Shown here: positions 7,506-64,000 of the stretch, in pieces | How positions within the stretch are numbered: position 1 is the first letter of the stretch | How the letters are laid out: every line of letters begins with the position of its first letter | Origin: Undaria pinnatifida | Taxonomy: Eukaryota; Sar; Phaeophyceae; Laminariales; Alariaceae | DNA: 64,000 bases | Direction: 5' to 3' | NCBI GenBank assembly: GCA_012845835.1 | Contig: JABAKD010000023.1 | Coordinates: 16,884,753-16,948,752, forward strand | The notes under the pieces: model-generated | What the model was told of the DNA's origin: nothing | Databases searched by the model: none | What the model saw: the letters and a program-made list of their open reading frames with translations, nothing else | Position numbers and translations under genes: made by a program

Positions 7506-10500
7506 TAAACTTAAATAGCTAGACCTCAACCCCCTCGGAGGTCTCGCTCAGCATATCCTCCCCTCTCTCAGCCCTTCTCAGCCCGTAATTGCCGAAAAGA
7601 AAATTAGTTGCTGGGGAAAAGAACCGTCCCGAAGTTCCATGCCTTCCTTGCTTTTCCTGTAATTCTTGGCTCTCATTCTCTGATCTTTTTCCTGCTTGCT
7701 CTGTCATGTTTTTATTTCGCTCTTTCAGCAACTTCTTTTTTGTACTTTTTACATTTGAAGTTGGCCAATTGCCGGCTGTTGAGAGGGAATTGCCGTTGAC
7801 GGCTGCAAACAAATTGAATTTGAAATATGCCGGATCGGCAATAACAATTTGAAGTTGAAATTTGCGAAGCGGACCAAGGCTTGTGCGGGAGGAGGCTCCG
7901 CCAACAGTGGGGGTGGTGGAGGGTCAGGATCAGGCGTGTGGAAGCTGGTCGGGCAAGAACGGGACTCAGCTTCTTCTGGCAATCCTGATTGGCCGTGCCC
8001 GAGCAAGGGTTGTGACGGCTTCCTCATCGCACGAAATAGAAAAAACAGGAGTTTCCAGTACGCTGTCTGCGACACCGGCCGTGAGTGACGACCCTTCCAC
8101 TTGCCAAGCTTTTCATAACCTTCACAAGAAGCACTGGGGAAGCGGCGACAACCCTCGTGTATGTGACTGGTGTGACGCGGGCACCTGTGATTCACCTTCG
8201 ATCGGCGTCCCTAACGAAGGAGCTGAGAGCTTGACGAAACGTGAGTTTCATTTCTTTGTGTTGTTGGAATGTGATGTTTGCTGTCAGTTACTATACTACT
8301 GATGCTGAGAGTTTGTTCCTGTTGTCAGTGTGTTCAGCGCCGTGCGACATAGGTAAGACACCAGATGTCAACACCCTGTATTTTCGGTAGTGCTGCGTTG
8401 AGTGTTGGCTGAGTGTGCTGCAAGTTGTGCGCAATAGACTATGTGGTTTTGGGTGTTGGTGAACTCAAGCGAATCCTGTTTCCAATAATGATGCACATTG
8501 AAATTTACATTGTTTGACCTTGTGTGTCTGTCTGAAACGTCTGCTGTAGCATGTGTGTGCTACACCAGCGTGGTCGAACTACCACACGGTGTGGAAGCTG
8601 TGCTTGGGGACGCGTAGCCTGAACAAACTCAAGTTCGCCTTGGTGGTCACGGAGGGCAGTCCCGTCGTCGGGGTAAGCATGTTGTACTAGTTGTCTACGC
8701 AGTTGTGTGCTGTGATTTCTTTTTCATGCGTACAAACACACTTTTGCATGTACGAGTACGTGTACGGGGCAGTCCCGTCATCGGGGTATAAGCGGGAATT
8801 GTACAAGTACTCAGGTCTACGAGTAGACCTATGCAGTGACGCTGCTTTGTGATGCGATTTCTTTTTCATACGTACAGCCAAACACACTTTATGTATGTAC
8901 GACTACGAGAACGGGGCAGTCCCGTCATCGGGGTAAGCGGTTGTTGGACAAGTGGTCCATGCAGTGGCGCTTTGTGCTGTGATATAAACACACGTTTTGG
9001 ATGTGCGACTACGACTACGTGGTATCTATACATGTAAGACGCAATGAAAACGGGAAAGTCTCATCACAGGGGTCAGCCAGGGTTGTAAAAATGGTCCATG
9101 CAGTGATAAATAACACAGCAGCATGATACCTCAGCACCAGTCGCAGTGCACACTGGAGGTTGATATATAGCAGTAAACAGAAGCTGAAGTTAATGGGTGA
9201 TGCTGGAGAGCAGTCCCGTGATTGGGGTTAGCGAGTTGTTCATGTAGTGACGCGGTGTACTATTTATGTTACTCATTTTTCATACAACCACATGAACTCT
9301 TTGTATTAACGTGTACAAGTAGGGTGCGCAACCTCTTCAGGAATCGCAGTACACGTCGGTCGTAATAGTGTTGATAGCAGCAGTAATTGAGTAGTACCGA
9401 ACAATATATACAGCAGGTACTGTCTCTTACCCTTCGTTGTCGGTATTCCGCCGGTAGGCCTTATATAGCAGTGTACCGGCGCTTACGCTTACCAGTTGCG
9501 ACTGCTGTGAATCCCGTTCGTTCCTGTCCCAGTTGTGGTTTCATAGGTGTTAGCAACGTTGTGGTACCAGGCAGGGCTTTGCCCATAAACGACCGCTTTC
9601 ATTACAACAGTGTTACATTGTACGACTTCCTTTCAAACTTTGGAAATCGACGACAGCTACGTGGCCTTACTATTTTGAACATTCACTGACCGCAAGGTAT
9701 TCCCATCCGTTGTTGTCGTTTGCAGAAGCCCTGCGAAGCAGCCGCCGAGGGCCGCCAAGTCGGCGAGGACATAAACACGAAGTGCACCGGCGACATCAAG
9801 GTCGGTGACCTCCTGAAGAAGGCAGGCGACCGCTTGCTCGATATACATCCCGCATTCCATTCCCACGGTGCCACGAGGGCGTTCGACATCGAGGTACGTT
9901 CTACTCTTATCTTGCGTCCTGTGTGTCACGAGTCGAGACATCCATGTCTCTTGCTCAAGGCTAGGGGATGGCGTGCGGATATAGTCTATGAAGTGCGGCT
10001 CTTTTTCCGAGTACCAAGAGCAAGTACAACAATACCACAACAATTACTAACAGCGAAAGGAGCTCCAATAATTTGGATGGTTACGACGTCTGCTAGAGAG
10101 AAGTACCAATACTTTTTTACGCATACTTATCGACGTTCTCCTGCCATGCTTCAACGTTTGTGGACAGATCCACAAGACCATCGACAAAAAACAAGAGTGC
10201 AAGGTGCTGGGTACCTCCGCTGAGGAAGAAGAGTCCAAGCAAGCCTGCATGCTCCTTCGGAAGCAATGTTGACAGCACGTTCTTTATAGAACGTTAAGTT
10301 GTGGTTTATTATACCAGCATCGTTTTTTGAGAACTATGCCTAAATGCGTGCTCTTCGTCTTTCAGGACTACAAATGTACTTCACATGTTTGCGGTGTGTG
10401 CGTTCAAGTTCCTGCTTCCAGCATGTTTTTTTTGGCACTGCGCTCCTTTACATCTAAAGTTGTAGTTTTCCTGTCTCTATCCTTGACAAGCGCGTGCCTG

Positions 10501-11418: not shown

Positions 11419-13583
11419 CTTCCTGGAGAAGGTGACATCCCGTGGTGTAGTTTGGTACTCCTGTGACCAAAACGTACAGGGGGATCCTGACTCCTGCCCC
11501 TTCACCGCGAACAAGTTTCGGTCCGAGCGCGACTCGACCAAGAAGCAGTCCAAGCTTATCTGTGTGGTCTGCATCCTCCCGGTCAACGGCGCCATCTCCA
11601 TCGGAAAGAAGCTTGACGGGGAGGTCGACGACGACGGCAAGCCAAGTAAGTATGGTATTTTTGCCCTTTCGTTTCTTTCCTCGGTATTTTTGCTATCGTA
11701 TAATAGCACAGTCGATACAACAGCAGTACAGCGCTTTTGCCCGGGGTTTTATTGCGCTGCTGTTGGATTGCCTGCCGGGTGTGATCATTTGATGCCTTGC
11801 ATCCTTCCACCGTCCAGCCGTGTCTGCATGCCGACGTGTGTCCCATTCTTTCAGCGCCCTCTGAGGGTATATTGCCAAACCGCACGACTGCTACTCTGTT
11901 GAGCGCCTACTTTTGATTGGTGTTTACTGCCTTCTTTTCCCCTACTGGTGTTTACTGGCTTTTTCCCCCAACTTTTCATTCCTACGATCGTATTTGTTTT
12001 TCGTCTCACTTCTGCAGCCTTGCGCCCTACTGCTGTAGTGTAAGTCGCCCCGTGCGTGACTCGTCTGATCCTCGCATCATTTCCTCGTCCTGCGTTGTCC
12101 GCCTGCCAGCGTGTGTGCCCTCCTTTGAGCGTATTATTTTGTGTGCTGTATGTACCGACGGTATGGCGAACGTTTATTCCTTTGCGAAAACGCCCTGCTG
12201 CGATTTCACTGGCTTTGTTCCGCTTTTACCTGCTTTTTTTTTCACGTTTACTCGTAGGGCGTCCGTCTCTTTTCTGCTCTGTAATCGCATCCTTTCGTCG
12301 TCCTTCCGGGTTAGCCTGCGTATATGTTTCTTCGGCACCATCACAGCCCTCTTTCGTGTCGTATCAAAGGCACGTTGAAATTAAAACACTTGCCAACCCG
12401 CCTGAATACTACTGCTGTTGCTGTTTTTGTTTCTTTTTCAGGGGACTCATACTTGCTTTATTTCCCGCGTCCGTCTCGTTTTTGCTTTTTTCTCGTGTCT
12501 GTCTCGTTTTTTGCTTTCCGTCCGTATACTTGATCCAAAGAGTACGAGAACTTGCACGTACACTTCGAGGACTGCGCTGGCCGGAGGGTCACGAACGCTT
12601 CCGGGGAGGAAGTTTTCGCCAGCGGGGCCTCGGCCACAGAAGACCTCATCGGAGTGAGCGACAATTGCCTGTGTCCAACTGCATCTTTCACACGAGTATA
12701 TTTATAAACGCCTGTGTTCTACATGATGTAACACATATTGCTCACAGCTGTTGTTTTTTTTAATTTTTCTACGAAATATTATAAAAAATGAAAATACACT
12801 CCAGCTGTGAGATCGAAGATTTCGTCGAAACTCATCTTTGCAAGCTGTGTGTGATACTCCGATCGCGCGCATTACGAGTTGTGTGTCCTCAGTATATAGG
12901 TCGGCGACTCCCCTTACAACTACAGTGTAGCTATCAGGGTCAACAGGATGATTTTAGTCAGTCTGTACGCGGAAACTATAAAACCCGTTTCTGAGGGGGA
13001 CAAAATCTGACAGCTGTGAAGGGAAATGTATCCTTTTATCAAGTGAATTTTTCTAATATTGTATGCATCTTTCATACGAGTATATTTATCGGTTGAGTCA
13101 ACACATATTAGATGCATCTTCATACGAGTATATATTACTGTTTATAATATTCCCCTCCCTACGCATGATTTCACACAGGAACTCTGCATATGCTACGACC
13201 CAACGCACACGTTCGACCACCTCCGCGACGGGTGCACTGGCCAGATCGAGGACGGCCAGCTCGTGGTCAAGGGGTGGGCCAACGCCGACATTCCGGAGCC
13301 GTTGCACCTGCGTTGCGCTAAGCGTCTCTGGGCGAAGAAGGTACGCAGTCATCGTAGATTTCCATCATGCCGCCTTCCGTCTGTTGTGTAGGTCTGGCTC
13401 TTTTCTTTATAACATATGATCACACTCCTTATTTTTCCTGTGTTGCGCTCTTCCCCATGTTCGTCTTGACAGCGCCAAGAGCTCGTGAACGAGAAGAAGT
13501 TCCTGCGCAAGACGGGAGCCTCCGCGGAAAGTGAGGCGAAGAACCCCTCTGCCTTGGTCCCCTCCGACTTCGCCGACTTTTGA
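11414..13583 (+). CDS. Zinc-module paralog next to Helitron fragment, 5'-truncated
   Basis: Four exons with clean GT-AG junctions: about 11414-11645, 12541-12653, 13179-13340 and 13473-13583 (TGA). The intron phases are 1, 0 and 0, as in the tandem gene, although the protein is strongly diverged. Exon 1 has C-D-Q-N...S-C-P-F-T and I-C-V-V-C. Exon 2 supplies Y-E-N-L-H-V-H-F-E-D-C. Exon 3 has C-I-C, D-G-C-T-G-Q-I-E-D-G and P-L-H-L-R-C. The last exon is a charged tail ending S-D-F-A-D-F. The Cys/His modules suggest zinc binding. No start codon remains, because a truncated family-2 element abuts the coding part at about 11418. A Helitron-type protein follows 154 bp downstream on the same strand, the same order as at 52.9-62.9 kb. 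Confidence 0.62.
12775..13015 (-). repeat. 240-bp dispersed repeat in an intron
   Basis: This stretch is repeated in inverse orientation at about 45025-45270. It includes the word GCTTGCAAAGATGAGTTTCGA, also found (diverged) near 17300, 28730, 39593 and 47150, and an end carrying AGAAACGGGTTTTATAGTTTCC. Here it lies in the intron between the second and third exons of the zinc-module paralog. Probable short non-autonomous element; its type is not identified. Confidence 0.55.
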
Positions 13584-13736
13584 AGATCCAAAAGGTTAGT
13601 CGTTTACCATCTCATATTTGGCTTTCATTAGCCCTGATACTGGCTTATATTAGCCCTGATACTGGCTTTTCATAGCCCTGATCATTGTCATTCCAACACC
13701 GAGTTTTGGTGACCCACTTTACGTTGCATCCCGCTT

Positions 13737-15466
13737 TTGATGCCAACCCACCTACCTGACCACTTACCTACTGATAACTTTGAAGTTCAAACTCAGTCAC
13801 GCCATGAAGTTACGCCTGCTGTAACACGATCTAGAAGCGCGTGTGCTGTTACACAAGATGATCCCCATAGACCTGCTTCCAACTCTACTGAAACCTCTGA
13901 AAGCCAATCTCAGCCACGCCACGCAGTTACGCCTGCTTTCACACGATCCAGATGTGCATGTCCTGTCAGACGAGCTTCTACAAGCGCATGTGCTGTTACA
14001 CGAGATAAACCCCATAGACCACCTTCCAACTCAACTGAACCCTCTGATGGCCAATCTCAGCAACGCCATGAAGTTACGCCTGCTGTCACACGATCCAGAA
14101 GTGCTTGTGCTGTAAGGCGAACTTCCAACACACATGATACCTCTGAACGCCACAGAAAAACTAACGTTGCAGCTAGACGAGCTTCCAAAGCTCGCCGCCG
14201 CCGCGCTGCACGTACGGCCATTCTCGCAGCTAGACGTTTACGTACCCAACCAACACGTCAAGCTGATGACGATTCAGCAATAATTCGCGATCATTTTACA
14301 CGCATGCGAGCTCCTCGCCACCCGACCCTTCCACCTCCTGCCTCCAACGCTCCTCTTATTTCCCCGAAAGGTATTCAAGAGTTCAACTCAATGAGCCATA
14401 TTCCAGACTCTAATATTTTCGAAAACACCGTTCTTACACACGAAGATAACTACGTTTGCCCGCACTGCGGCGCAATGTTGTGGAAAGAAGAACGAAAAAA
14501 TAAATACAACTGTTGCAAAAACGGCGAATATGCGACACACCCTTTACGACCTATTCCTGCTGATGTATGGGATATATTTTACTCTTCGGAATTCAGTCGC
14601 AATCAACGAAGGTATAACTCTCTGTTCTCTTTCATCGCCCTCGGGGCAGGCGGAATGGACAAAAGAACATGGACCAACCCACCCCCTCCTTCAATGCTTA
14701 CTATGCATGGCAAAGCGTACCATCGAATTTTCGACCTCCAAGAGCAGTACGAAAACCTAACTGTTGGCAACACTGCTCGCCTTTATATATATATATGACT
14801 CCGATTTTACTCAGCTTCTGTCATGTGCCTCATTTCCCCATCTCATGTTCTCAACGGCATTCCTCATGCTGCGAACGTTGTCTATGACCCTTTTGTAGAA
14901 GCTGCTACTGGAATTGTTCGCCAAATTCCACCCTTACCCCCCTTTTTATACCCCCTTCGTCTTTTCATCCACCGTCATTACCGCCTACGCCTTCATGGTC
15001 TATTTGCCACGAATTTGGTGACGGATCTTGCGGATTTCGTGCTCTCGCACGTGCTCTTCTTGGTGACGCTAACCTTCACTCCCAGATTCGACAAGAAATT
15101 GTTCAGTACCTCGATGCTAACCGTCACATTCATACATTTCAAGCAGCAATTACATCTGGCATTGGCATTGAAAACTTGCCCATTCTCGGTGAGCCCCCAT
15201 GTCTTTACCAATCGTACGACCACTACCTTGAGCTCATGTCCAATCCTGCAACCTACATGGGACACCCTGAGATAATCGCTGCTCAGCTAAAGTACGGCAG
15301 GACAGTGCACGTTTCTTTCGCTGGATCGCCCCTGCCCATCGTGCCAATTGCCTACACCGACACCATCCACCTACTCTTCAACCCAATATCCAAACATTAC
15401 GACTCGCTAACTATTACCTTCCCACCATCCGTTGCACTCGCCAATCCTCTTCCAACAGGTGCCTAA
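13737..15466 (+). pseudogene. Internally deleted Helitron protein retaining OTU domain
   Basis: An open frame from 13737 to 14798 encodes an N-terminal region with three ~40-residue repeats (each with H-E-V-T-P-A-V-T-R-S-R or close variants), then a part homologous to residues ~35-150 of the intact protein at 52867-57777: C-P-H-C, N-C-C-K-N-G-E-Y and N-Q-R-R-Y-N-S-L-F-S-F. It then jumps at about 14800-14830 to the region matching residues ~1430-1450 (L-N-G-I-P-H-A-A-N-V-V-Y). The Rep nuclease and helicase are therefore deleted. A frameshift in a C-run near 14940 precedes the OTU part. The OTU part is open to 15466 with G-D-G-S-C-G-F-R and a C-terminal K-H-Y-D-S-L, matching the catalytic Asp, Cys and His positions of OTU cysteine proteases. 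It cannot mobilise DNA by itself. Confidence 0.75.

Positions 15467-52517: not shown

Positions 52518-52603
<86 letters not shown>
52507..52603 (+). repeat. ATT trinucleotide microsatellite
   Basis: About 32 ATT units with a single ATC interruption near the start. The poly-Ile and poly-Leu frames over it are artefacts. Confidence 0.95.
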
Positions 52604-52605
<2 letters not shown>

Positions 52606-52687
52606 AAGATCTCCCTTCGGAGTGGGCTCATGAGAGCACAGCGGATGGGGGTGATGCAAGACGAAAGCAAACAGTGATATAGATTTG

Positions 52688-52795
52688 AAACGCCTCTTTT
52701 CCCGCAACAACCCGCTGCCGAAACACAGCGCGAACCACTTCCTGTACGAACGCATACGGATGTTCAGCCCGTGTCAACATTGCTGAGCGGCGCAC
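52688..52795 (+). repeat. Flank repeat R, copy downstream of Helitron gene
   Basis: AACGCCTCTTTTCCCGCAA (about 52690), CCTGTACGAACGCATACGG and CCCGTGTCAACATTGCTGAGC match in the same order and orientation at 62983-63175, beyond the other end of the zinc-gene/Helitron pair. Relative to the genes (minus strand) this copy lies 3' of the Helitron stop. It may be the 3' terminus of the element. Confidence 0.6.
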
Positions 52796-52866
52796 CCAGC
52801 CTCTAAGTAGTATGACGATATTATGTTAAACTAAAAAAAAAAATATAATTGAAAAACAGTTTTCAG

Positions 52867-55800
52867 TCATGGATCGCTATCATTATTATTGTGCGCGTTC
52901 GAAGGTGACAGAGTGCAGTAGTGAAGGGAATTGGCGTGGAAAAGAACAGTGAGAATGTTTGGCTGGTGAGGGTCAGCCGGCGGTGGGTAATTTGTTCCAG
53001 CGACCCGGACTTCTATGGTCACCCCGTATAGTATCTCGGCGGCCGCTATCTCGATGTATCCAGCGTAGGCCGTGGGTAGAGCCATGATTTGCAAGTATTG
53101 CTGGACGGAGTGGTAGATTTGTGGGCTAGAACCTTGAACATGAATGGGTTCATTTCCAAACCCGTTTTGAATGTGTAGGAAGAAGTAGTCTTGGTTGGCA
53201 TGGATGTGAGACACAATTTGTTGGCGAACTTGATGGTGATATTCTGGATCGCCGAAAACTTTTCTGGCAATGGTTCTGAGCAGACAGGCACCATCACCAA
53301 CCTCGTCGACAATATTCCACGAAGAAGGTGGTTGTGGTTGGTCAGGCGCGGGCAATGATGGACGGGAGGGAGGGTTTGAGTTCGGCGGTTGGTAAAAAAT
53401 GGGGTTGAACTCCGGAAGCTTGTTGCCGGTGGCTGCCTCGATGAAGGGCGCATAGACGCAGTTGGCGACATGAGGCACGCCGTTGATGAGACGTTCTGGC
53501 TGCACCAGTAGGAGGACGCTGTTGCTAGAAGTGGTCCTGCTGAGAGCGACGTAAAGCTGACCATGGCAGAACACGTCAGATCGAAGATCTAGTCCGACGC
53601 GGGCAAGTGTTTGCCCCTGGCTTTTGTTTATTGTCATTGCGTAGCAAACACGCAGCGGAAACTGTCGGCGGTGGAAGCACATCCCTTGCCTGCCGACCTT
53701 AACCTCGAACAGAATGCGCGGCACTTTCACGAGCGGAGAACCTGGAGCGATGATTTCGACGTCAACAATTCGCGGCGAAATTGCGCGCACAATGCCTTTC
53801 CTTCCGTTGACGATACCGCTGTCGAAGTTCACATTTCTGATGAACATGACGATACAGCCAACTTTGAGGTCTAGTTGGTGCGGCGGTACCCCAGGAACGT
53901 CAATCTTCTCCAAGAATTCTACAGAGGTAACCTCCTCAATGTCTTTTGGGTTGGACTTGATGATTGTGTTGGAGCTTTTCAGAGAATGCAATTGGTTGGG
54001 CAAGAGATTGAGTATATGATCGTTGATCTCGTCGGTGCTGGCGTTAGTCGGCGACAGGATGCCCCTGTCGGCAAATTCTGCGGGCTGAGCGGTCAAAATG
54101 TCAGGATAAACAAAATCGATGAGCGTTTGGAACTCGGTGGTGCAACTCAATGAGCAAGTTGAGGGGAGAGAAGCAGTTGGATGGGATTCTGTATCGTGCT
54201 CCTCGGGTAGGGTGTATTCCAGCGGGATAATAACAGACTCGTCCGGAAGGGTTACAGGAGGTATCAAACCTTCACCTACCGCTCTGACAGTGCGCGAGTA
54301 TGGTTTGTCTAGGCGGTCGCGCATGGACTGCACCAGGCGGAACCTCTGTACCTTACCCCAAAGATAGGAAGAGATAAGAGAAGCCTCGACGACGTCTGCA
54401 GGAGTACCAAAGACAACGACAGGCCCGACCTGTCGCCAGTCTCCTCCGAACAAAACTGTTGCGCCTCCGAACGGCTTGTCACAGCGGCGCAAGTCACGAA
54501 GAGTAAGATCTAAAGCTTCGGGTGCAAGCTTGTCACTCATAGGTATTTCGTCCCAAATAATGAGGTCGGCACGACGAAGAACTTCGGCACGTTCTGTTTC
54601 GGCCTTGACGTTGCACACAGAGCCCTGCACGAGGTTATCACCGAATGGGATTTTGAAGGTGGAGTGGGCTGTGAGACCCCCTGGTAAGAGAAGTGCAGCG
54701 ATTCCTGTGGAAGCGGAGCACAGTACGAGGTTGCCCTTTGCTCTCAAGTCTGCCGAAATGGCGGTCATGGTGAAGGTCTTGCCCGAACCAGCCGGCGCGT
54801 CGATCATGAAAATGCCACCTGCCTTGTTCCGCACGGAGTTGACGACGGCATCGAAAACAGTCCTCTGTTCTGAATTCAACTTAGGTATGATGCCGTCAGC
54901 CTCTTGCCGCATGTCTTCACGGTTGAAGGCAGCGAGAAGCCGGTGGTATTCCGTGTCTGGATGCGAAACATGCGGCAAGCCGACGGAAGCGGTAGTCTTT
55001 CCGTGCTTGGCGAGCATTACATCGAGCTGCCTGAGCGCGCTGTCGGTGGCTGAAGATTCGGACATGCGGCACATGTAGTCGGTCATGAAGTGCTGCTTGT
55101 GAGTGTCCCACAGGTCGCGTGCCGGAGCACCTGCGATGATGAGCGTAACTAAAAGAGATCTGAGTTCCCGAGGAGTGGAGAAATTTAGAGACTCTCTTAA
55201 CGTAAGGTCGTACTCCTGTGCGTCTGCCACCAAGCCAAGTGCATGCGCTGCAGATTGGTGAGACTCGTGAAGGACGGCATCTACGGTGCGAATTTGCTCC
55301 CAGCTTTGCGAGGCGATGTGGTGCAGAAGAAGCCGAAGGTACCACACGTCGCCTGAGTCGGGCTTGAGAAAGTTAACACGGCAAACGCATTGAGAGCGTC
55401 GGCGGTACACGTAGTTGCCGTAGCCATCGATACGATTGGGCGTAGCGGTAGGGTCTGCGTCGTCGCTGTCGTAGCCATCGCTGTTGTCATCCTCAGACTC
55501 GTTCCGTTGTTGGTTACGGCGGCCACGTTTTCTCCGTCGCTGTTTCGGCTCGACGGTAAATTGTTCGAAATAGTCGAGGAAAGTGAGTTCGTCAAAAGGC
55601 TCTCCGGTAGGGCGTCTGAAATACCGCATGAGGTCAGTTTGGGAGTTCTTGGCCAATTCGCGGCGTTGCTCCGCTGTATCATCCTCGTCGTGGATTACGA
55701 CTTGTTCGCCCTCGAGATGAACATAGAGCAGTATGACACCAGGAGAACGGCTTTGCATGTCGAAGCCAAAAATTCTCCACATTGCTTCAGAACTTGATAT

Positions 55801-57777
55801 GTAGCGAATACTTTTGTACGCCTCTATCTCATCTCCGTCGTACATAATCCGTGCTTTGGCCAAGTCCGGTCCTTTATAGCAGTATTTGTATATATAGGCA
55901 ACTACTGCCATGGCCGTGACCAAATCAACGCAAATGTGACAATCGTATTTCATGAGAAGGTATGGATTGTAAGGCACAATGTAGCGGTTATCAATTTCGG
56001 TCTCACCGTACTGGTTGGCCCCATTTTTTTGCTTTATTGTAGCGGTATCTCGGTTGTCTAGACGTCGGTACTCGGCCCTTCCTGTCTTGGGGTCTGTTGC
56101 AAAATTGTCCCTGAATGGTTGAGGGTAGTGCTTTGAGCAGTGCTTTCTGTTCGTCTTGTGGTCTGTAGTCATGCATGGCGCGTTGGGGTTGAACTCCCCG
56201 CACTTTTGGTGTACCATGTACTTAATGACTTTTTCTCTCAGTTTTCCGCCGGCAATTCTTTCGTCCGGCAAGTTCGTCCACACCCACTTGCCCACCTCCT
56301 GACGAGCTTCAGGGCTCAGGCCGTCAAACCTTATTACAATATGACTGTGGGGCATGCCCCTTTTCTGAAATTCAATGACGGAGAGGTGATAAATCGCCTT
56401 CCCGTAGAGGTTGTTCTTCAGGTCGTTCATGATAGCTTTAAGCTTTATTTTGAAAACGCGGTTGCACAGATCCGGTCGGTCCATCGCGCATTGTCCTGGC
56501 AGCAAATTAGCTTGAATTTCAGGCCAGAACCCGTTGCACGTAACAGTAACCATTAACGACGGTCTCCTTTTGCGTGTGACGACGGCCATGCCGTCAAGCT
56601 GTCTCTTTTTACGGTTTGCTGGTGACGCGTGAAATGCTGTCGGCAATTTTTTGCCCGTCGGAGTTGTGCCGACTGCACTTCGTAGAGCTTTGTATTGTGT
56701 GATTCTTTTCTGGCATTTGTTGGAACCGATGTAGTCTAGGGTGCTGTCCTCCTGTCTAGAATAAGCATCACATGCATATTCTTGAGCAAGGACGGAGAGT
56801 ATGTGGAATACTTTTTCGCACAAAATTCGCTGGCGAACAAACGTCCAGATCTTGATTGGTTTGTCGCAAGTAGTTGAGAGGGTCCGAGAATCGTAGGGCG
56901 GGTCTTCCTTGTAGTAGCCTGGACTCCATCCTGGCTCGCCGTGAAAGAGCAGAAGTGGGTATTGTAGTGAGGAATACGTTGGAGACCAAATTGGCACAAA
57001 GCGAGGTCGATCGCAGATTTCACCCGGTCCAGTTCTAGGAAAGGTGTACACAAATCTTTTCGAGCGAGATTGCGCGTCGTCTTTGAAAATCAAAGCAGCG
57101 ATTTCTTTTCCTGAGGGAGGAGGAGCGTCGCCGACAACGGGCCCGTGTGTTTGTCGTGTGACTTGAGCGAATTCAATGCCGACATTGTCGCTAGGATCTG
57201 ATTGATTGACCTCTAGGAGAATGGACTTGTACGTTTTTATCCAAGAGTTGTTCGCGTGCAGAGCTGCGGACAGGTTGGCGACGACTGTCTGGTCTAATTT
57301 TTTCTGTTTGGCAGCATGCTGAAGCATGTTCGAGTCGTACATGTATAGTCGCGCTTTGTTTACGAGTGGGACACGCTCAGAGTAAGTTTGGAAGGCGTCC
57401 ATGATGCGGTGGTAGGATCGACCGTGCAACTGAAGCATTGAAGGATAAGAGGGTTGTGTCCAAGTGGGTGTCGGAGCAGCGCCCATGGCGGTGAAACTAA
57501 ACAACCCGTTATACCGGCGCTGGTTCTGTAAGAAGTGTTTTGTCTTGTACAACTCCTCAACGTCACTCGACAGCGGAATCAATGGCTCCACGACATACTT
57601 GCCGCTGGAGCAACAGTTAATAGTCTCCTCACGCAAAGTGCGAGCATTGCAGTGTTTGCAAATATCGTTGGACGGATCGTTCAGGGATGGAGCACGCAGA
57701 ACGTACTCACTCGGCAAGGACACTGTGAGATCGCCAAATGTCAACACTCCCAACCTCGGAGTTGGTTGAGAGGACAT
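52867..57777 (-). CDS. Helitron-superfamily Rep-helicase-OTU protein
   Basis: Uninterrupted 1,636-residue frame, ATG at 57777, no intron. It is a rolling-circle transposition protein. The N-terminus has Cys pairs (C40-x2-C43, C55-C56). The Rep nuclease has the R-G-M-P-H-S-H-I metal motif (H477, H479) and the tyrosine motif Y-I-Y-K-Y-C-Y-K-G (Y628, Y632). The SF1 PIF1-like helicase has Walker A A-P-A-G-S-G-K-T (994-1001), Walker B I-I-W-D-E (1073-1077) and motif VI Y-V-A-L-S-R-T (1409-1415). An OTU cysteine-protease-like domain follows, with G-D-G-A-C-L-L-R (D1495, C1498) and His in L-H-Y-C-T-L (H1619). All key residues are present, so it could be active. An OTU domain is known in Helentron-like and some algal Helitrons; its target is unknown. 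A zinc-module gene lies ~700 bp upstream on the same strand. Confidence 0.93.
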   Translation of the reverse strand: MSSQPTPRLGVLTFGDLTVSLPSEYVLRAPSLNDPSNDICKHCNARTLREETINCCSSGKYVVEPLIPLSSDVEELYKTKHFLQNQRRYNGLFSFTAMGAAPTPTWTQPSYPSMLQLHGRSYHRIMDAFQTYSERVPLVNKARLYMYDSNMLQHAAKQKKLDQTVVANLSAALHANNSWIKTYKSILLEVNQSDPSDNVGIEFAQVTRQTHGPVVGDAPPPSGKEIAALIFKDDAQSRSKRFVYTFPRTGPGEICDRPRFVPIWSPTYSSLQYPLLLFHGEPGWSPGYYKEDPPYDSRTLSTTCDKPIKIWTFVRQRILCEKVFHILSVLAQEYACDAYSRQEDSTLDYIGSNKCQKRITQYKALRSAVGTTPTGKKLPTAFHASPANRKKRQLDGMAVVTRKRRPSLMVTVTCNGFWPEIQANLLPGQCAMDRPDLCNRVFKIKLKAIMNDLKNNLYGKAIYHLSVIEFQKRGMPHSHIVIRFDGLSPEARQEVGKWVWTNLPDERIAGGKLREKVIKYMVHQKCGEFNPNAPCMTTDHKTNRKHCSKHYPQPFRDNFATDPKTGRAEYRRLDNRDTATIKQKNGANQYGETEIDNRYIVPYNPYLLMKYDCHICVDLVTAMAVVAYIYKYCYKGPDLAKARIMYDGDEIEAYKSIRYISSSEAMWRIFGFDMQSRSPGVILLYVHLEGEQVVIHDEDDTAEQRRELAKNSQTDLMRYFRRPTGEPFDELTFLDYFEQFTVEPKQRRRKRGRRNQQRNESEDDNSDGYDSDDADPTATPNRIDGYGNYVYRRRSQCVCRVNFLKPDSGDVWYLRLLLHHIASQSWEQIRTVDAVLHESHQSAAHALGLVADAQEYDLTLRESLNFSTPRELRSLLVTLIIAGAPARDLWDTHKQHFMTDYMCRMSESSATDSALRQLDVMLAKHGKTTASVGLPHVSHPDTEYHRLLAAFNREDMRQEADGIIPKLNSEQRTVFDAVVNSVRNKAGGIFMIDAPAGSGKTFTMTAISADLRAKGNLVLCSASTGIAALLLPGGLTAHSTFKIPFGDNLVQGSVCNVKAETERAEVLRRADLIIWDEIPMSDKLAPEALDLTLRDLRRCDKPFGGATVLFGGDWRQVGPVVVFGTPADVVEASLISSYLWGKVQRFRLVQSMRDRLDKPYSRTVRAVGEGLIPPVTLPDESVIIPLEYTLPEEHDTESHPTASLPSTCSLSCTTEFQTLIDFVYPDILTAQPAEFADRGILSPTNASTDEINDHILNLLPNQLHSLKSSNTIIKSNPKDIEEVTSVEFLEKIDVPGVPPHQLDLKVGCIVMFIRNVNFDSGIVNGRKGIVRAISPRIVDVEIIAPGSPLVKVPRILFEVKVGRQGMCFHRRQFPLRVCYAMTINKSQGQTLARVGLDLRSDVFCHGQLYVALSRTTSSNSVLLLVQPERLINGVPHVANCVYAPFIEAATGNKLPEFNPIFYQPPNSNPPSRPSLPAPDQPQPPSSWNIVDEVGDGACLLRTIARKVFGDPEYHHQVRQQIVSHIHANQDYFFLHIQNGFGNEPIHVQGSSPQIYHSVQQYLQIMALPTAYAGYIEIAAAEILYGVTIEVRVAGTNYPPPADPHQPNILTVLFHANSLHYCTLSPSNAHNNNDSDP

Positions 57778-58477
57778 GTTTAAAAGATGAAAGTGTTTTA
57801 TTTATTATTCAGAATCCAGAAGTCTTTTAAGACCAAAACACGCAAGCCTTGACACGAGTCAAGATCAGACGAAACGAAACCGGTGTTGCCTCTACTCCAA
57901 ACGATGAGGAGCAGAAAAAACGGTCACAGAAAAAACGAACGCCTGAGCTCAAACGCAGGCACACGCACAAAAATGCTGGTAACTTACCCGGCTGAAGCCA
58001 AGATGCAAACCAACAAAAGGCAGTAGTAAAGCTGCGCTCCTTCAAAGGAGCTAGTCGAAGAAAACAACAACCCTGGTCCAAACCAAAGTCAATACGGATG
58101 ACGTCAACCCGAACAGGCAAACGTAGAAAAAAGCTGGTTACAGACCTGGCCGAAGGCAAGGTGTAACCCAGCGATAGGTAGCAGCAGTAAAAGCAGCGCC
58201 CCTTCAAAGGAGCTTACTGAAAGAAAAATTAACCTAGGTCCAAACCAAAGTCAACACCGAACACGTGTAGCTCAAGCTCACGAACGAACGAAACCCCAAC
58301 TTCTCAAGAAGAAAAGGGCAAGGTAGTAGTAAAAGCAGCGCCCCTTCCAAGGAGCTTACTGAAAGAAAAATTAACCTTGATCCAAACCAAAGTCAACACC
58401 GAACGTGTGGAGCTCAAGCTCACGAACGAACGAAACCCCAACTTTTGAAAAGAAAGGGCAAGGCGATAACGAACGCC
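57778..58477 (-). repeat. Intergenic ~142-162-bp tandem units
   Basis: Between the zinc-gene stop and the Helitron start. AAAGCAGCGCCCCTTCNAAGGAGCTTACTGAAAGAAAA-type units begin near 58024 (diverged), 58186 and 58328. Each includes GGTCCAAACCAAAGTCAA and CTCAAGCTCACGAACGAACG. The array probably contains the 3' end of the zinc-gene transcript and the Helitron promoter, but no specific signals can be assigned. Confidence 0.65.
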
Positions 58478-61068
58478 TCAAAGGTCGTCGTCAGAGTCAG
58501 GCGCGAGGGCAGCGAAGCCGACTGCGCTCTCGACCTTGAGCTTCTTTTCCGCCGACTCCTGCTCCTTCTTGAGGTAGTTCTTGTGGAGCTTGTCCTGGGA
58601 GCCGAAGACCAGGCGAAGGAAGTCCTTGCGCTTCTTGCGGGCGCACGTGTAGTGCAGGCGAGTCCCCAGGGGAGCGCTGGAGAGCAGGACGTCGCCCTCC
58701 TTGATGACAGGGTCGGCCTGCACGCACGTGGTGCACTCTTTTCCGATCTGCGCGGAAGAGAACAAAAAACAGGAACGGAGGAGGAAACAAATTTTGAAAC
58801 AAAATTAGACTTGTTGCGCGGAGCAAAACACTCACTCGAAAATATAGTAGCTGCAACACAAACGGGAAACAATACATGCACGTTTTTTGCAAGCATTCTG
58901 CTCTACCGTGCGGCTGTCTAGTTCTTGCACAACCACTCACACAGAAAATAAAAAGAGGGAAAACACCTTCTGTTCTGTATAATACTGGGAGGGAAAAAAA
59001 AATAAACGACTTCTGCATGCTGCACACATGTTGTATGAACACATACATAGCAGCGTTGTTGTTGCGAACGTAGAACACGGTCGTACGGAGACAGCATGCA
59101 GAACTTGAAAAAAAAAAAAAGTGGGAGGATCGAACCTGACGCTAATCACACGGCATCATGCAGGCACGCCGAAATGCAGTAATTTATAGGATCACTTGGA
59201 TCACGCCAGAAAAAAACGGTGTGAGGAGGATAGAACCGGGGTCGGGGTGCGCACCACGATTCGTCGTATTCTATGAACACATTGCTTGTTGTGTTGCTCA
59301 TTTCAACGCCAAACACGGGGCTGGAGGAAAACGCAGGAGAAAAAGAAACAACGACGGTGTAAAGATCGAATCGGGGTGACACCGCGAGCATACAGAAACT
59401 GAGACACGAGGAAAAAGCAGGTGAATACTGATGCTTAGTACTTGCATAGAGAAAAACACTCACACAAAAAATAAAACAGGGACAACACACACTCTCTGTT
59501 CCGTGAACGCTCATTACGCATAATACTTTGAGGTGACAAAAATAAAAACAAAATTACTCCATGCATGCTGCACACATGTTGCGAACGTACAACACAGTTA
59601 GGTCTGGGACTGGACGTCGATTTGACCCAAAAAAATGGCAGGTCTATTCGGCGAAAACCACAAAAAAATCCGAAAAAATGTCTCGAAGAAAAAAATTGCA
59701 AACACTGTTTTTACTTGGTTTTAGACTAAAATAATGTTTGACAGGGTATCACAAAATACGCAACACAGGAGGCGAGTTGGATCCTGAAATTCAACAGACA
59801 CGTGTAATGAGTGTAAACGGAGGGAAATACGGATTATTCTGAATTTTCCGTTGTATTTTGAAGTCTAATCGGACGGAAATGTGCGGGAAAACTCGTGTTT
59901 TCTGCTTGTATTCGTCTCTTGCTCAATGGGGTCGAACTAATGCAACTGGGTATTGGTAAAATACCCGTATTTCCCTCCGCCGGGACTTGGAGGAGACAGC
60001 AAAGCAATCCGCTCTTAAATCGAGTAAATAGCCGGCGAGAAATTCGCAAACAAAGTTGGCCCCATTGGGTCATATTCTGGCAGAGTGATCGTGCAAAATT
60101 AGCCATGGGCAACTCGAAAAAACCTGAAGGCACGGGACCGAAAGGAGATTTTTTTTTTTGCAAAGGTCAAGGAGGCTTATCGGGCGCGTACCGGGACCAC
60201 GACGGCAGACGCGGGCGTGGCTGCACGCCGGGCGCTTGCCATCCAGCGCGGCGGTGTTGAGGCGGCCGAGGGCATCCGTGACCGGGTCGTGAAGCAGCGC
60301 GACGAGAGCCGGGTCGAGGCCGCTGAGGCAAAGTCTTTGCTGCAAGATGTCTCTCAACAGTTGTCCGAGGAGAAAGGCAAACTCAACCTGGAGCAGGACC
60401 TCCGACACGAGTCAGATGCAGCCTTGGCCCAAACCCGAGTCGAGCTACACGCACAGCAGCAACTTTCCCACGAGCTAGAGGTGAAGCGTGCTGCATCGGA
60501 GGCACGCGAGATAGAGTTGGGAAAGACGCTGGAGGTTCGCAAAAAAGGAAAAATTACGGCACTGCTGCTGCATAATATCACCATCTTGCCGGAGGGTCCC
60601 CCAGAAGATGTGTTCCGCCTACGCTAGCTGTCCCTTGAGTACGCTGCTACACGCGGGGGGTAGAGCAGCACCTCGGGCAGCAGCAGCAGCAGCAGCAGCA
60701 GCAAGCAGCAGCAGCAGAAGCAGCAGCAGAAGCAGCAGCTATTTTTTTCTATACACGCTCCAACTTTTTTTGCCGCAGAACAGCAGCAAGCGGCACAGGC
60801 TTTGTTTTCACGAATAATTTTTTGCAGGTGATGTGGGGCCTTTCCCCCCATCGCTGATTGGTTGATTTCCTAAAGAGTTTTTTTCCCAGAGAACGACCAT
60901 GGGACATTTTTTTTCCAAATTCTACGTCTAAAATTTTGCCAGTCCCAGGCCTAACTGCTGCTGCATAATATCACCATCTTGCCGGAGGGTCCCCCAGAAG
61001 ATGTGTTCCGCCTACGCTAGCTGTCCCTTGAGTACGCTGCTACACGCGGGGGGTAGAGCAGCACCTCG

Positions 61069-61100
<32 letters not shown>

Positions 61101-62855
61101 GCAGCAGCAGCAGCAGCAGCAGAAGCAGCAGCTATTTTTTTCTATACACGCTCCAACTTTTTTTGCCGCAGAACAGCAGCAAGCGGCACAGGCTTTGTTT
61201 TCACGAATAATTTTTCGCAGGTGATGTGGGGCCTTTCCCCCCATCGCTGATTGGTTGATTTCCTAAAAAGTTTTTTTCCCAGAGAACGACCATGGGACAT
61301 TTTTTTTCCAAATTCTACGTCTAAAATTTTGCCAGTCCCAGGCTTTTTTTTGCCAGTCCCAGGCCTAACAGTGCGCAGACAGCATGCAGAAAATGAGACA
61401 ACAAAAAACTTGAGGATCGAACCTGGGATATAACCACAGGAGTAAAAAACCAGGAGTAAAAATGTTGGAGTATGTTGTATTTTATACGGTACAGAGTAAA
61501 AGAAAGAAAAAACGCGTGATGAGGATAGAACCGGGGTGCGCAGCAAGATTCATCTAACCCTACCAATACAGGACTGCTGTTGTTGCTAAATTTAACGCTT
61601 AACACGGGGCTGGAGGAAAACACGGGGAAAAAAAACGTTGGTGACACCATCAATCAGCAGGAAAATCCAGTGGGGTGCGTTACACTCCTCGTTCTTCTCT
61701 GTCAGACGTCAGGTTTGTAAATGCACCTTCCAACACACACACATATATTTGAAACAGCACTGGAAACACTTCATCATGCCACGTCACACAAAAACAAAAA
61801 CAACGGCGGGATACACGTGACGCGATGAAGCCAGACGCCTGTTCCCAATAGAAGGGAAAACATACAATAGATAGTGTACTCACGTCCTTGACAACAGCGT
61901 TGCAGGCGAAGGCCGCGTTGTCCGTGCCTTTGGCCTTGTCCAGCAGGCAGTTCCTGAGGTGCTGGTTCGTGAACTCTGTGCAGCAGGGGAATGGGACGAC
62001 AAAACAGAAAGGGCGTTGGTTGGTTGCAGCGGGATCTTTTGATAAAGATTTGTATGAGCGTCATGCATCTGAGTGTGCTGACGCGCACAGAAATGAGAGA
62101 GAGCAGCGAAAATTAAACAGGTGACGAATACATGAACACAGCATGTTCCTGCAGTGTGCGGACAACAGATCGACACATACATCAGCCGAAAACCATAGGC
62201 CGAGACACGTCACCCTAAATTACCCGTGCATGTACAACCATCGTACTCTGGGTAGCTTGGAAAAAGACTGGTGTGACAACATGTTTGTATGTGCAGTCCG
62301 GTTGAAAATTGCGCGAAGCAGCGAATAAAACAGAAACGAACAGATGCATGAACAAACGCATGAGAATAACACGCAACATTGAACGAACTTAGTCAACTAC
62401 TCACTGTTGTCGTAGTCCGTCTTGACAGACAGGCACACTGTCCCTTCCGGGATGGTACCGTGGCAGGCGCAGCACTTGGCGGAGTACCTCAGGATAGTGC
62501 CGCCTCCAGCGCAGCTCCCAGAGCGGCAGACGGCGAAGGTCACACCGGTCTGCGGGTTGGTTCCGGGGGGAATGAACTGCACGAGGGTGAAGGGGCAGGA
62601 AGGGCGGTTGCAGCGGAGCTCCTCGTCGAACTCGAGCTTGGTCGTCTTCGCAGTCGCAGGCGTGTTCCACTTCTCCTTGTAGTCGGCGAAGGAGGAAATG
62701 GGCTTGTCCTTGACAGGGGCCGAGGGAGGGGATTCTGCCGTAGAACGGGGAGCAGGAGGGGACGAAGGACCCCCACCAGTGGAAGCAGCAGCAGCAGTAG
62801 CTGAAGCGGCCGGGGGAGTTGCGGGGAGTGCAGGGGTGCGGGGCGTGCGGGCCAT
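58478..62855 (-). CDS. Intact zinc-module protein gene upstream of Helitron gene
   Basis: Three exons on the minus strand: 62855-62405 (ATG start), 61975-61884 and 58747-58478 (TGA). Junctions are GTGAGT/CACAG and GTGAGT/GCGCAG, phases 1 and 0, the same as the other family members; the third exon equals exons 3+4 of the paralogs. The product is ~270 residues: a Pro/Ala/Ser-rich N-terminus, C-N-R-P-S-C-P-F, C-R-S-G-S-C, then A-K-C-C-A-C...(x24)...H-L-R-N-C across intron 1, and C-T-T-C...(x23)...L-H-Y-T-C. It has a basic helical stretch and an acidic end D-S-D-D-D-L. The two C-x2-C...H...C modules, with I-P-E-G or I-K-E-G between, look like PARP-type fingers, which in known proteins bind DNA breaks. 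Function here is inferred only. Its position just upstream of the transposase gene suggests one element. Confidence 0.72.
59100..59360 (+). repeat. Intron repeat, partner at 61375-61640
   Basis: Within intron 2 of the zinc-module gene. GAGGATCGAACCTG, GAGGATAGAACCGGGGT and AACACGGGGCTGGAGGAAAA occur in the same order at both places, as does the nearby ACAGCATGCAGAA. Duplication inside the 3.1-kb intron explains part of its length. Confidence 0.6.
60105..60627 (+). CDS. Antisense coiled-coil ORF nested in intron 2
   Basis: An ATG at 60105 starts M-G-N-S-K-K-P-E-G-T-G-P-K-G-D. After a T-run (about 60150-60161) the coding-like frame continues one base off as K-V-K-E-A-Y-R-A-R-T and a long heptad-rich, charged region with repeated A-E-A, Q-Q-L-S-E-E-K and L-E-Q-D-L-R patterns to about residue 140, a probable coiled coil. 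Stop near 60627. A T-run frameshift or an AG acceptor at GCAAAG would both reconcile the frames. Codon choice is GC-rich like the real exons. It lies opposite to the host gene. Unidentified; could be a captured gene piece. Confidence 0.35.
60558..61345 (+). repeat. 393-bp tandem duplication with CAG repeats
   Basis: Sequence from ACTGCTGCTGCATAATATCACC (60558, key part) is repeated 393 bp later with few changes; each copy contains a CAGCAGCAG run of different length (about 60690-60740 and 61070-61130). It lies within intron 2 of the zinc-module gene. The frames over it are not genes. Confidence 0.85.
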
Positions 62856-62974
62856 GCTCGAAGCTGTTCGGTGTATGGTTTGTCGGTCAGGAACGAGAGC
62901 GTGTGAGGGTTGTGAGAGAGAGGGGCAGCGCGAGGCGCTCTAGGTTTGAACACAGATCTTTGAACCAAAGATCT

Positions 62975-63175
62975 TGACCTCAAACGCCTCTTTTCCCGCA
63001 AAAGTTCCCGTAAAACTCAGCTGGGTTCTGCCGTTCTTAATCGACATCATCAGCTTTCTGTACACGGAAACAGCTCCCCCTGCAAAACACACCACCAACA
63101 GTTCCGGCCCCAGATTTTGCATACAGAACCGGGTGCTCCTGTACGGACGCTCGTGTCAACACAGCTGCGCATAGC
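62975..63175 (+). repeat. Flank repeat R, copy upstream of zinc-module gene
   Basis: Carries AACGCCTCTTTTCCCGCAA, CCTGTACGGACGCTCGTGTC and CAACACAGCTG in the order and orientation seen at 52688-52795. Together they flank the zinc-gene/Helitron pair as direct repeats. It may be the 3' end of a neighbouring element joined head to tail. Confidence 0.55.
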
Positions 63176-64000
63176 TGTGCCTCACAGCTGTGCCTTACAG
63201 CAGTGCTCGTAGCTGGCATATGACGATTTTCTGTTGAACTATGACTTTTTTTTGTTCAACTGCTTCTGTCGTTGTGGCATATGTATGCGATCTGCTGCAA
63301 CTGCCGACAGCTGCTGCTGACGTGTTTTTTTTTGTGCAAAACACAGCAGCACAGCAACAGCAGTGCTGAACTGGTGGCCCTGGCCCTTGTGTCAACATAG
63401 CTGTGCAGGTCTGCTCCTCTCAGCAGTGTGTAGGCCTGTGCCTCTCGGCAGTGTGCTTAGCTCTAGCTAGGGGCATTTTTTGTTCAACTATACCCTGTGC
63501 CTGCTCTCAGTGCAGTGTGCTCAAAACGTGTTATTGTTCTAAATTACTGCTGCTGCAACTGCCGACAGCTGCTGCTGACGTAGCACAGCAACAGCTGTGT
63601 GCTGAACTGGTGGCCCTGTTCTAAATTACTGCTGCTGCAACTGCCGACAGCTGCTGCTGACGTAGCACAGCAACAGCAGTGCTGAACTGGTGGCCCTGTA
63701 CAGACGCCCGTGTCAACATAGCTGTGCAGGTCTGCTCCTCTCAGCAGTGTGTAGGCCTGTGCCTCTCGGCAGTGTGCTTAGCTCTAGCTAGGGGCATTTT
63801 TTGTTCAACTATTCCCTGCTGTAAACGTGTTCAACCAAAAGAGGCGGCAGCTTTTCTGAAGTGTTTTTGGACTGTTGAGCCAACAGCCCGCCAACAGCCC
63901 GCCGACAGCCCACGGAAGCGGAAAAAAAAATGACAGTCCTGCGCCAGATTTTGTATATAGACATATGTGTAGGCCTGTGCCTCTCGGCAGTGTGCTTAGC
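63176..64000 (+). repeat. Tandem ~314-bp units related to flank repeat R
   Basis: GAACTGGTGGCCCTG...CGTGTCAACATAGCTGTGCAGG followed by CCTGTGCCTCTCGGCAGTGTGCTTAGC begins at about 63368 and 63682, and the array continues past the window end. An 83-bp subrepeat (CTAAATTACTGCTGCTGCAACTGCC) is at 63539 and 63622. CTGTACAGACGCCCGTGTCAACA (63696) is the same word as in repeat R. No genes. Confidence 0.7.

Follow-up and report, generated by a model that had tools for sequence, protein, structure and literature searches.

We analyzed a 64,000-nucleotide stretch of the Undaria pinnatifida genome, hereafter the window (contig JABAKD010000023.1, referred to as C30; G000:C30:16884753-16948752), and searched the 511-Mb genome with the genes found in it. 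A spliced gene for a cysteine-rich protein, the zinc gene, belongs to a common transposition unit with the Rep-helicase-OTU gene of a Helitron, is linked to such genes across the genome, has descended in parallel with them, and, where families could be compared with each other, shows purifying selection. The explanation that we favor, with moderate confidence, is that OTU-bearing Helitrons in this genome consist of two genes: a spliced zinc gene lies upstream of the Rep-helicase-OTU gene on the same strand and encodes a putative zinc- and DNA-binding transposition accessory, in the slot taken by RPA in other Helitrons.

The window contains two such pairs (Table 1). In the first, three predicted exons with GT-AG at every border and an in-frame join encode a 270-amino acid zinc protein that consists of a four-cysteine ribbon, two C2HC-type fingers (C-x2-C-x24-H-x3-C and C-x2-C-x23-H-x2-C), a charged stretch (net +7), and a short C-terminal tip (net –4); the putative ligands of finger 1, by our assignment, are C128, C131, H156, and C160. 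The gene ends 0.7 kb upstream of a same-strand open reading frame (ORF) matching the Pfam families PIF1 (E 2e-58), Helitron_like_N (E 4e-33), and OTU (E 6e-6). In this ORF, a Rep with H-x-H and Y-x3-Y motifs is joined to a PIF1-type helicase, the combination that defines the Helitron superfamily. The second pair has the same order on one strand, with the zinc exons at GT-AG borders and a deleted Rep gene that keeps its N terminus and an OTU end (E 3e-4; 21.8 bits, slightly below the Pfam cutoff of 23.3 bits). The Rep proteins of the window family and of the family to which the second pair belongs (C61 copy) are 43% identical, and the two zinc proteins share 17% identity in the last exon and 29% in exon 1; with such strong divergence, the pairs are not the product of one recent duplication. 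An intact pair, a second pair with a diverged zinc paralogue and a deleted partner, and the lack of a recent common duplication were all part of the original prediction for this DNA, and each was borne out.

Table 1. Features of the window (positions count from its first letter)
Feature	Position	Strand	Details
Whole family-A Helitron-like element	52602..63965	-	11,364 bp including foreign insertion; 5' end TATGTCTATATAC, 3' end ...GATCTTGTAA
Zinc gene exon 1	62405..62855	-	Ser/Pro/Ala-rich N-tail, four-Cys ribbon (C82, C87, C110, C115), finger 1 first half
Zinc gene exon 2	61884..61975	-	Finger 1 second half (H156, C160)
Zinc gene exon 3 and stop	58478..58747	-	Finger 2 (C186, C189, H213, C216), basic stretch, acidic C-terminal tip
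Rep (HUH, Y-x3-Y)–PIF1 helicase–OTU protein	52867..57777	-	~1636 amino acids; ATG at 57777; no internal stop
Foreign insertion in zinc intron 2	~59598..61367 (approximate ends)		~1.77 kb; ends TTAGGCCTGGGACTGG / CCAGTCCCAGACCTAA
Zinc paralogue exon	11426..11645	+	Start approximate; further exon upstream likely
Zinc paralogue exon, H..C half of finger 1	12541..12653	+	GT-AG borders
Zinc paralogue exon, finger 2	13179..13340	+	GT-AG borders
Last zinc paralogue exon	13473..13583	+	Ends ...VPSDFADF-stop
Internally deleted Rep-helicase-OTU gene	13713..15466	+	Kept: N terminus 13713-14798, OTU end 14888-15466
Degenerate last exon, third zinc lineage	9711..9893	+	HSHGA vs. intact HYHCA; piece of candidate high-copy nonautonomous derivative

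The first pair belongs to a family that we call A. Its 5' end, TATGTC, is common to 10 copies, the window's included, each with a different flank, and its 3' end, known from the window and from short copies but not from the other full-length copies, is common to the window and three short copies of 1625–1627 bp. The short copies contain the 5' end and zinc exon 1 to about residue 106, fused to the 3' end (52821-52602). The common 5' ends and the short copies joining both ends thus place the zinc and Rep genes between the same element ends. As a genome query, the window zinc protein gave 33 exon matches. In the copies on C31, C48, C28, C25, and C2, the zinc-gene region aligns in segments at 95.9–100%, and an unbroken alignment at 98.7–99.8% identity starts in zinc exon 3 and continues into the Rep ORF. 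All three zinc exons are open and in order on C31 and C48, although the open frames that contain the Rep matches there measure just 522 and 586 amino acids. By copy alignment, the insertion in zinc intron 2 is missing from C48, C28, C25, and C2 and is thus foreign to the element.

To quantify the linkage, we took the best 150 of 154 Rep matches (Helitron_like_N) and counted zinc matches within 9 kb, using the second-pair zinc protein and two further zinc queries. The count took 127 and 102 of the 150 listed rows of the two further queries, the second of which gave 152 matches in all; the rows dropped, weak or solo-derivative ones, could only raise the zinc counts, those of the control arrangements included. 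A zinc match was upstream on the same strand at 79 Rep matches, downstream on the same strand at 3, and on the opposite strand upstream at 4 and downstream at 3. Among the best 81 Rep matches, which are matches and not independent elements, 78 have a same-strand upstream zinc gene, 67 by search and 11 by direct reading. Direct reading concerned the 14 that the search missed: the gene was present in 8 of 10 stretches fetched and in two copies of the 1673 family, and one was a second match in an element already counted. Among these readings, L065 has a 26-residue piece only (E 9e-7), and L067 a 59-residue match at 32% identity (E 5e-7). The exceptions are C18:4201710 and C56:7708733, where 4.5 kb contained no zinc gene, and the family-A copy C61:1354559, which is rearranged. 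Stretches picked without a known zinc match had the gene in 5 of 5 cases in one set and 8 of 10 in another, the fetched stretches just mentioned.

The near-identical, recently amplified 1713-amino acid family (16-191 match) fills 42 of the 81 rows, 40 of them with the zinc gene; the other 39 rows include 38 with it. Its 42 exon-1 matches, among those listed, are open and of equal score, and its 5' end is common to 40 scored matches and, on C1 and C13, precedes the zinc exon-1 match by 773 bp; its 3' end is based on two copies. The second-pair zinc protein gave 172 matches. Among the best 150 of these, exons precede the Helitrons of the protein's own family by 1.9–5.6 kb, and an exon of 44% identity lies upstream of the 1713-family copies. 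Spacing is fixed within families, for instance at 1580–1589 bp on plus-strand copies of the 1713 family.

We then compared trees of Rep and of the zinc last exon for 11 families, of which B, T2, M2, M3, and M4 were picked because a zinc match was already known. Rep identity to family A is 58% in B, 42–45% in 1673, 1713, T2, 1669, 1725, and z2, and 25–52%, in pieces, in the decayed M families. Three clades were found in both trees (support in Rep/zinc): {A,B} (100/100), {1673,T2,1669} (100/91), and {z2,(M3,M2)} (78/81); the pair {1725,M4} had support of 98 in the Rep tree and was not resolved in the 11-family zinc tree. The zinc data did not reject the Rep topology (approximately unbiased [AU] test, P = 0.151), none of 200 label-shuffled topologies was as good, and the Mantel correlation was 0.81 (0 of 5,000 permutations as good). 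With A and B left out, the nine remaining families gave the same outcome (AU P = 0.151; 0 of 200 shuffles as good), and {1725,M4} appeared in both trees (98/67). Disagreement of the zinc and Rep trees, by the original prediction a sign of chance neighborhood, was therefore not found. H-x-H is intact in 10 of the 11 aligned Rep families and reads H-x-Y in the 1669 copy; Y-x3-Y is complete in 8 of these 11, keeps only its first Tyr in M3, and is not readable in B and M2.

The nonsynonymous-to-synonymous rate ratio (omega; NG86 method) of the last exon between families was 0.076 for T2/1673, at a saturated synonymous divergence (dS) of 2.9, 0.277 for M4/1725, 0.288 for 1713/1725, and 0.385 for 1713/M4; the single pair available for exon 1 was saturated. 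The linkage, the codescent, and between-family omega of 0.08–0.39 mark the zinc gene as a Helitron component of long standing; that it is a bona fide part of this element family had been the original prediction from the two window loci.

Zinc sequences also occur apart from intact genes. An exon-1 query of the 1669 type gave 1,782 first-look candidates, and many matches of 57% identity point to a short nonautonomous derivative. Two of three such stretches read, L045 and L046, combine exon 1 with a degenerate last exon, with HSHGA in place of the HYHCA of intact members; in the third, L047, exon 1 is repeated in tandem, in units of 1191 bp (C34:2747500-2752700). Copies with internal deletions and the high-copy derivative seem to have multiplied while lacking an intact zinc gene in cis, in agreement with supply of the factor in trans.

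Several observations weigh against a two-gene element with a selected accessory. Only 12 of the 69 weak Rep matches (rows 82–150) have the zinc gene and 57 do not, an absence that we attribute to fragmentation, without a check of each case. The original prediction had tied its case to most copies having the gene: this is what the best 81 matches show and not what the weak, fragmentary ones show. In family A itself, the zinc gene is damaged in three of the five other Rep-linked copies: the 5' part is inverted on C25, most of exon 1 is lost on C2, and the last exon has a stop on C28. Without A and B, the Mantel correlation falls to 0.44 (62 of 5,000 permutations as good). The three omega values at moderate dS all come from pairings of one set of three families and are thus not independent, and the sole within-family pair, in B, has omega of 0.53 with nine changes. 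The derivative that has lost a ligand still has omega of 0.186 against intact 1673, so low values partly reflect ancestry. By the same calculation, the zinc exons evolve faster than Rep (omega 0.038–0.043). The zinc protein has no recognized domain in Pfam to E 10, and its C-terminal tip varies, ending in Phe in 8 of 11 cases and not in 3, with a net charge of 0 in two.

Being kept in distantly related members, the zinc protein probably helps the element to move or survive. The conserved Cys/His columns suggest that it binds metal: in the last-exon alignment of 12 sequences, C6 and C36 never vary and H33 hardly does, and the exon-1 alignment of 6 has five invariant Cys. Judged by its type of modules, it may bind DNA, single-stranded or at junctions, exposed by Rep nicking and PIF1 unwinding. 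The C-terminal tips of SSB proteins offer a model for a docking tip, and by this likeness the tip of the zinc protein would perhaps dock on the Rep-helicase. The protein would then act as a transposition accessory, taking the part that RPA-like proteins have elsewhere among Helitrons. The main rival is a regulator that binds element DNA or chromatin and controls expression or counters host silencing, perhaps with the OTU deubiquitinase; anti-silencing proteins are known from other plant transposons. We rate it as less probable, though a serious candidate. A DNA-binding regulator would be consistent with the ribbon and fingers of the protein and with its encoding by a gene of its own upstream. 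The linkage, codescent, and selection suit a regulator equally well, all that is observed here agrees with both roles, and the spread of derivatives fits a trans-acting factor of either kind.

The accessory explanation takes the zinc genes to be one family, and further points on the opposing side concern this step. Direct matches are clear within {A,B} and within the remaining families, but full-length searches with either type did not bring up the other among the matches listed, and the comparison of their exon-1 profiles was not significant (E 0.04, probability 1%). The two lineages could thus have acquired unrelated proteins, one by A/B and one by the others, that are merely alike. The last-exon profiles do match (E 3.5e-6, probability 88%), although over 26 columns that form the only tie between the types; the order of parts, position, and strand are the same, and an intron splits a finger in both. 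We take the two types as homologous on the last exon, the order of parts, position, and strand, and consider separate acquisition unlikely.

The original prediction had seen a likeness to the fingers of PARP and proposed that the protein perhaps recognizes nicks or single strands; the reading considered here is a PARP-type finger protein that recognizes nicks made by Rep. Two C2HC modules ending in H-x2/3-C do resemble PARP fingers in outline. The PARP spacing, C-x2-C-x28/30-H-x2-C, differs from the x23 and x24 of the window protein, and in the families other than A and B, the first two Cys of finger 2 are separated by about 13–16 residues, not two. The Pfam matches of the zinc protein to E 10 do not include zf-PARP (PF00645), and no PARP chain was listed among Protein Data Bank (PDB) sequences to E 10 (phmmer and two family profiles). 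Sequence comparison thus lends the likeness no support, and a PARP-type finger protein is improbable.

Very unlikely, too, is a hitchhiker, a host gene captured once and carried without function. Helitrons are known to capture fragments of host genes (PMC6431247, PMC4067079), and we can cite no host homologue of the zinc gene, no search having been aimed at one. Against passive carriage, open frames and ligands are kept across families whose Rep is only 42–45% identical to family A, between-family omega is low, and order and strand are the same in 78 of 81 cases. A chance neighborhood of two repeat families, both of high copy number and one with an abundant zinc derivative, is refuted by the shared element ends and runs counter to the skew of the 79 same-strand upstream cases against all other arrangements.

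The termini set family A apart from the canonical types. The element begins with TATGTC and ends with GTAR, differing from the 5' TC and 3' CTRR of Helitron1, and its last 80 bp contain no perfect hairpin of at least 6 bp like that of the Helitron1 3' end. Neither the family-A termini nor those of the 1713 family share an exact inverted 8-mer, as might be expected of Helitron2, which has asymmetric terminal inverted repeats with hairpins at both ends. Helitron1 inserts between A and T; a T follows all four family-A 3' ends, and the base before TATGTC varies. Searching with the joined flanks of one short copy gave 23 matches and no full empty site: 2 are the copy's own flanks, most others reflect the end of a repeat resembling a miniature inverted-repeat transposable element that stops near query position 151, and one spans the junction (85-170). 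With no full empty site found, the terminal T may belong to host or element. The 5' 0.7 kb of the element (63292-63965 of the window) has minisatellite-like repeated segments and aligns patchily to other copies.

Known Helitron accessory genes include RPA, OTU, SET, and endonuclease (PMC4067079, PMC6431247), and we found no description of a zinc-protein gene in this position in the literature titles, abstract openings, and passages covered, a scope outside of which lie subscription journals and Repbase. Plant and some animal Helitrons with RPA-like genes (PMC4067079, PMC6431247, PMC4683698) likewise combine a Rep-helicase with a small accessory thought to bind single-stranded DNA; here, the accessory is cysteine-rich and has no Pfam match to an RPA-like OB-fold domain at the sequence level. 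Helentrons (PMC4067079) are similar in their Rep-helicase with an OTU protease, an accessory gene (RPA), and a T at the insertion boundary. Their defining C-terminal apurinic/apyrimidinic endonuclease sets them apart: the window ORF, accompanied by the zinc protein and with no RPA match, has OTU at its C terminus and no endonuclease family among its Pfam matches to E 1, a search made with this ORF only. FoHeli3 of Fusarium oxysporum (PMC5148889) has an extra upstream ORF without known domains that is found only in Helitrons, but in the opposite orientation and, in the excerpt, without mention of a zinc motif.

Also among the closest descriptions is that of proto-Helentron-Pi from Phytophthora infestans (PMC4067079), like the window's a stramenopile element, with an intronless Rep/helicase of 1783 amino acids that lacks the endonuclease and a same-strand first ORF for a 218-amino acid hypothetical protein, EEY70650.1. 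It differs in its length of ~14 kb, a SET gene, a last ORF on the other strand, and ends of 5' TT and 3' CTAG between A and T. EEY70650.1, known here by its description and not by sequence comparison, may be a relative of the zinc protein. More tentatively than the two-gene structure itself, we suggest that the zinc proteins could be a new family and the ancestral accessory of brown-algal, perhaps stramenopile, OTU-Helitrons, whose codescent with Rep would predate the split of the families and which would replace RPA as the binder of single strands or junctions, with an SSB-like tip. Searches beyond this genome found no relatives in phage records (tblastn) or, with a zinc exon or the whole Rep ORF, in IMG/VR contigs, which says little, as these cover no eukaryote collection.

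The use of Helitron accessory genes is often unclear. The zinc gene is tied to nearly every well-preserved Rep gene of the genome and shares its descent. Rolling-circle transposition may therefore require it, a role for which it is a strong candidate, and it offers a way to ask what the Rep-helicase needs in vivo. For annotators of transposable elements in related genomes, it offers a second diagnostic gene; unrecognized, it could pass as a large orphan host family.

Further observations concern the sequences around these elements. The ends of the intron-2 insertion, TTAGGCCTGGGACTGG and CCAGTCCCAGACCTAA, are nearly inverted, and the insertion resembles a separate DNA transposon; a shorter version occurs in the C31 copy and at least part of it in the copy at C30:25.05M. 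The 5' terminus of the 1713 family, ATAGAGGTAACTAATATTACGGG (L073-L082), contains the 9-mer TAATATTAC, perhaps by chance. This 9-mer resembles the motif known from geminivirus origins; because it also occurs in three other loci, we claim no such origin for the 1713 family. The EsV-1-7 domain, described as proliferated in brown algae and otherwise reported mainly from giant viruses (PMC12477816), gave 2,159 first-look candidates in this genome; all 150 scored were above the cutoff, and none of 14 control genomes matched, in keeping with a brown-algal host. Contig C30, at 27.5 Mb 5.4% of the genome, holds 43 of the best 150 Rep matches, 35 of those beyond 14 Mb.

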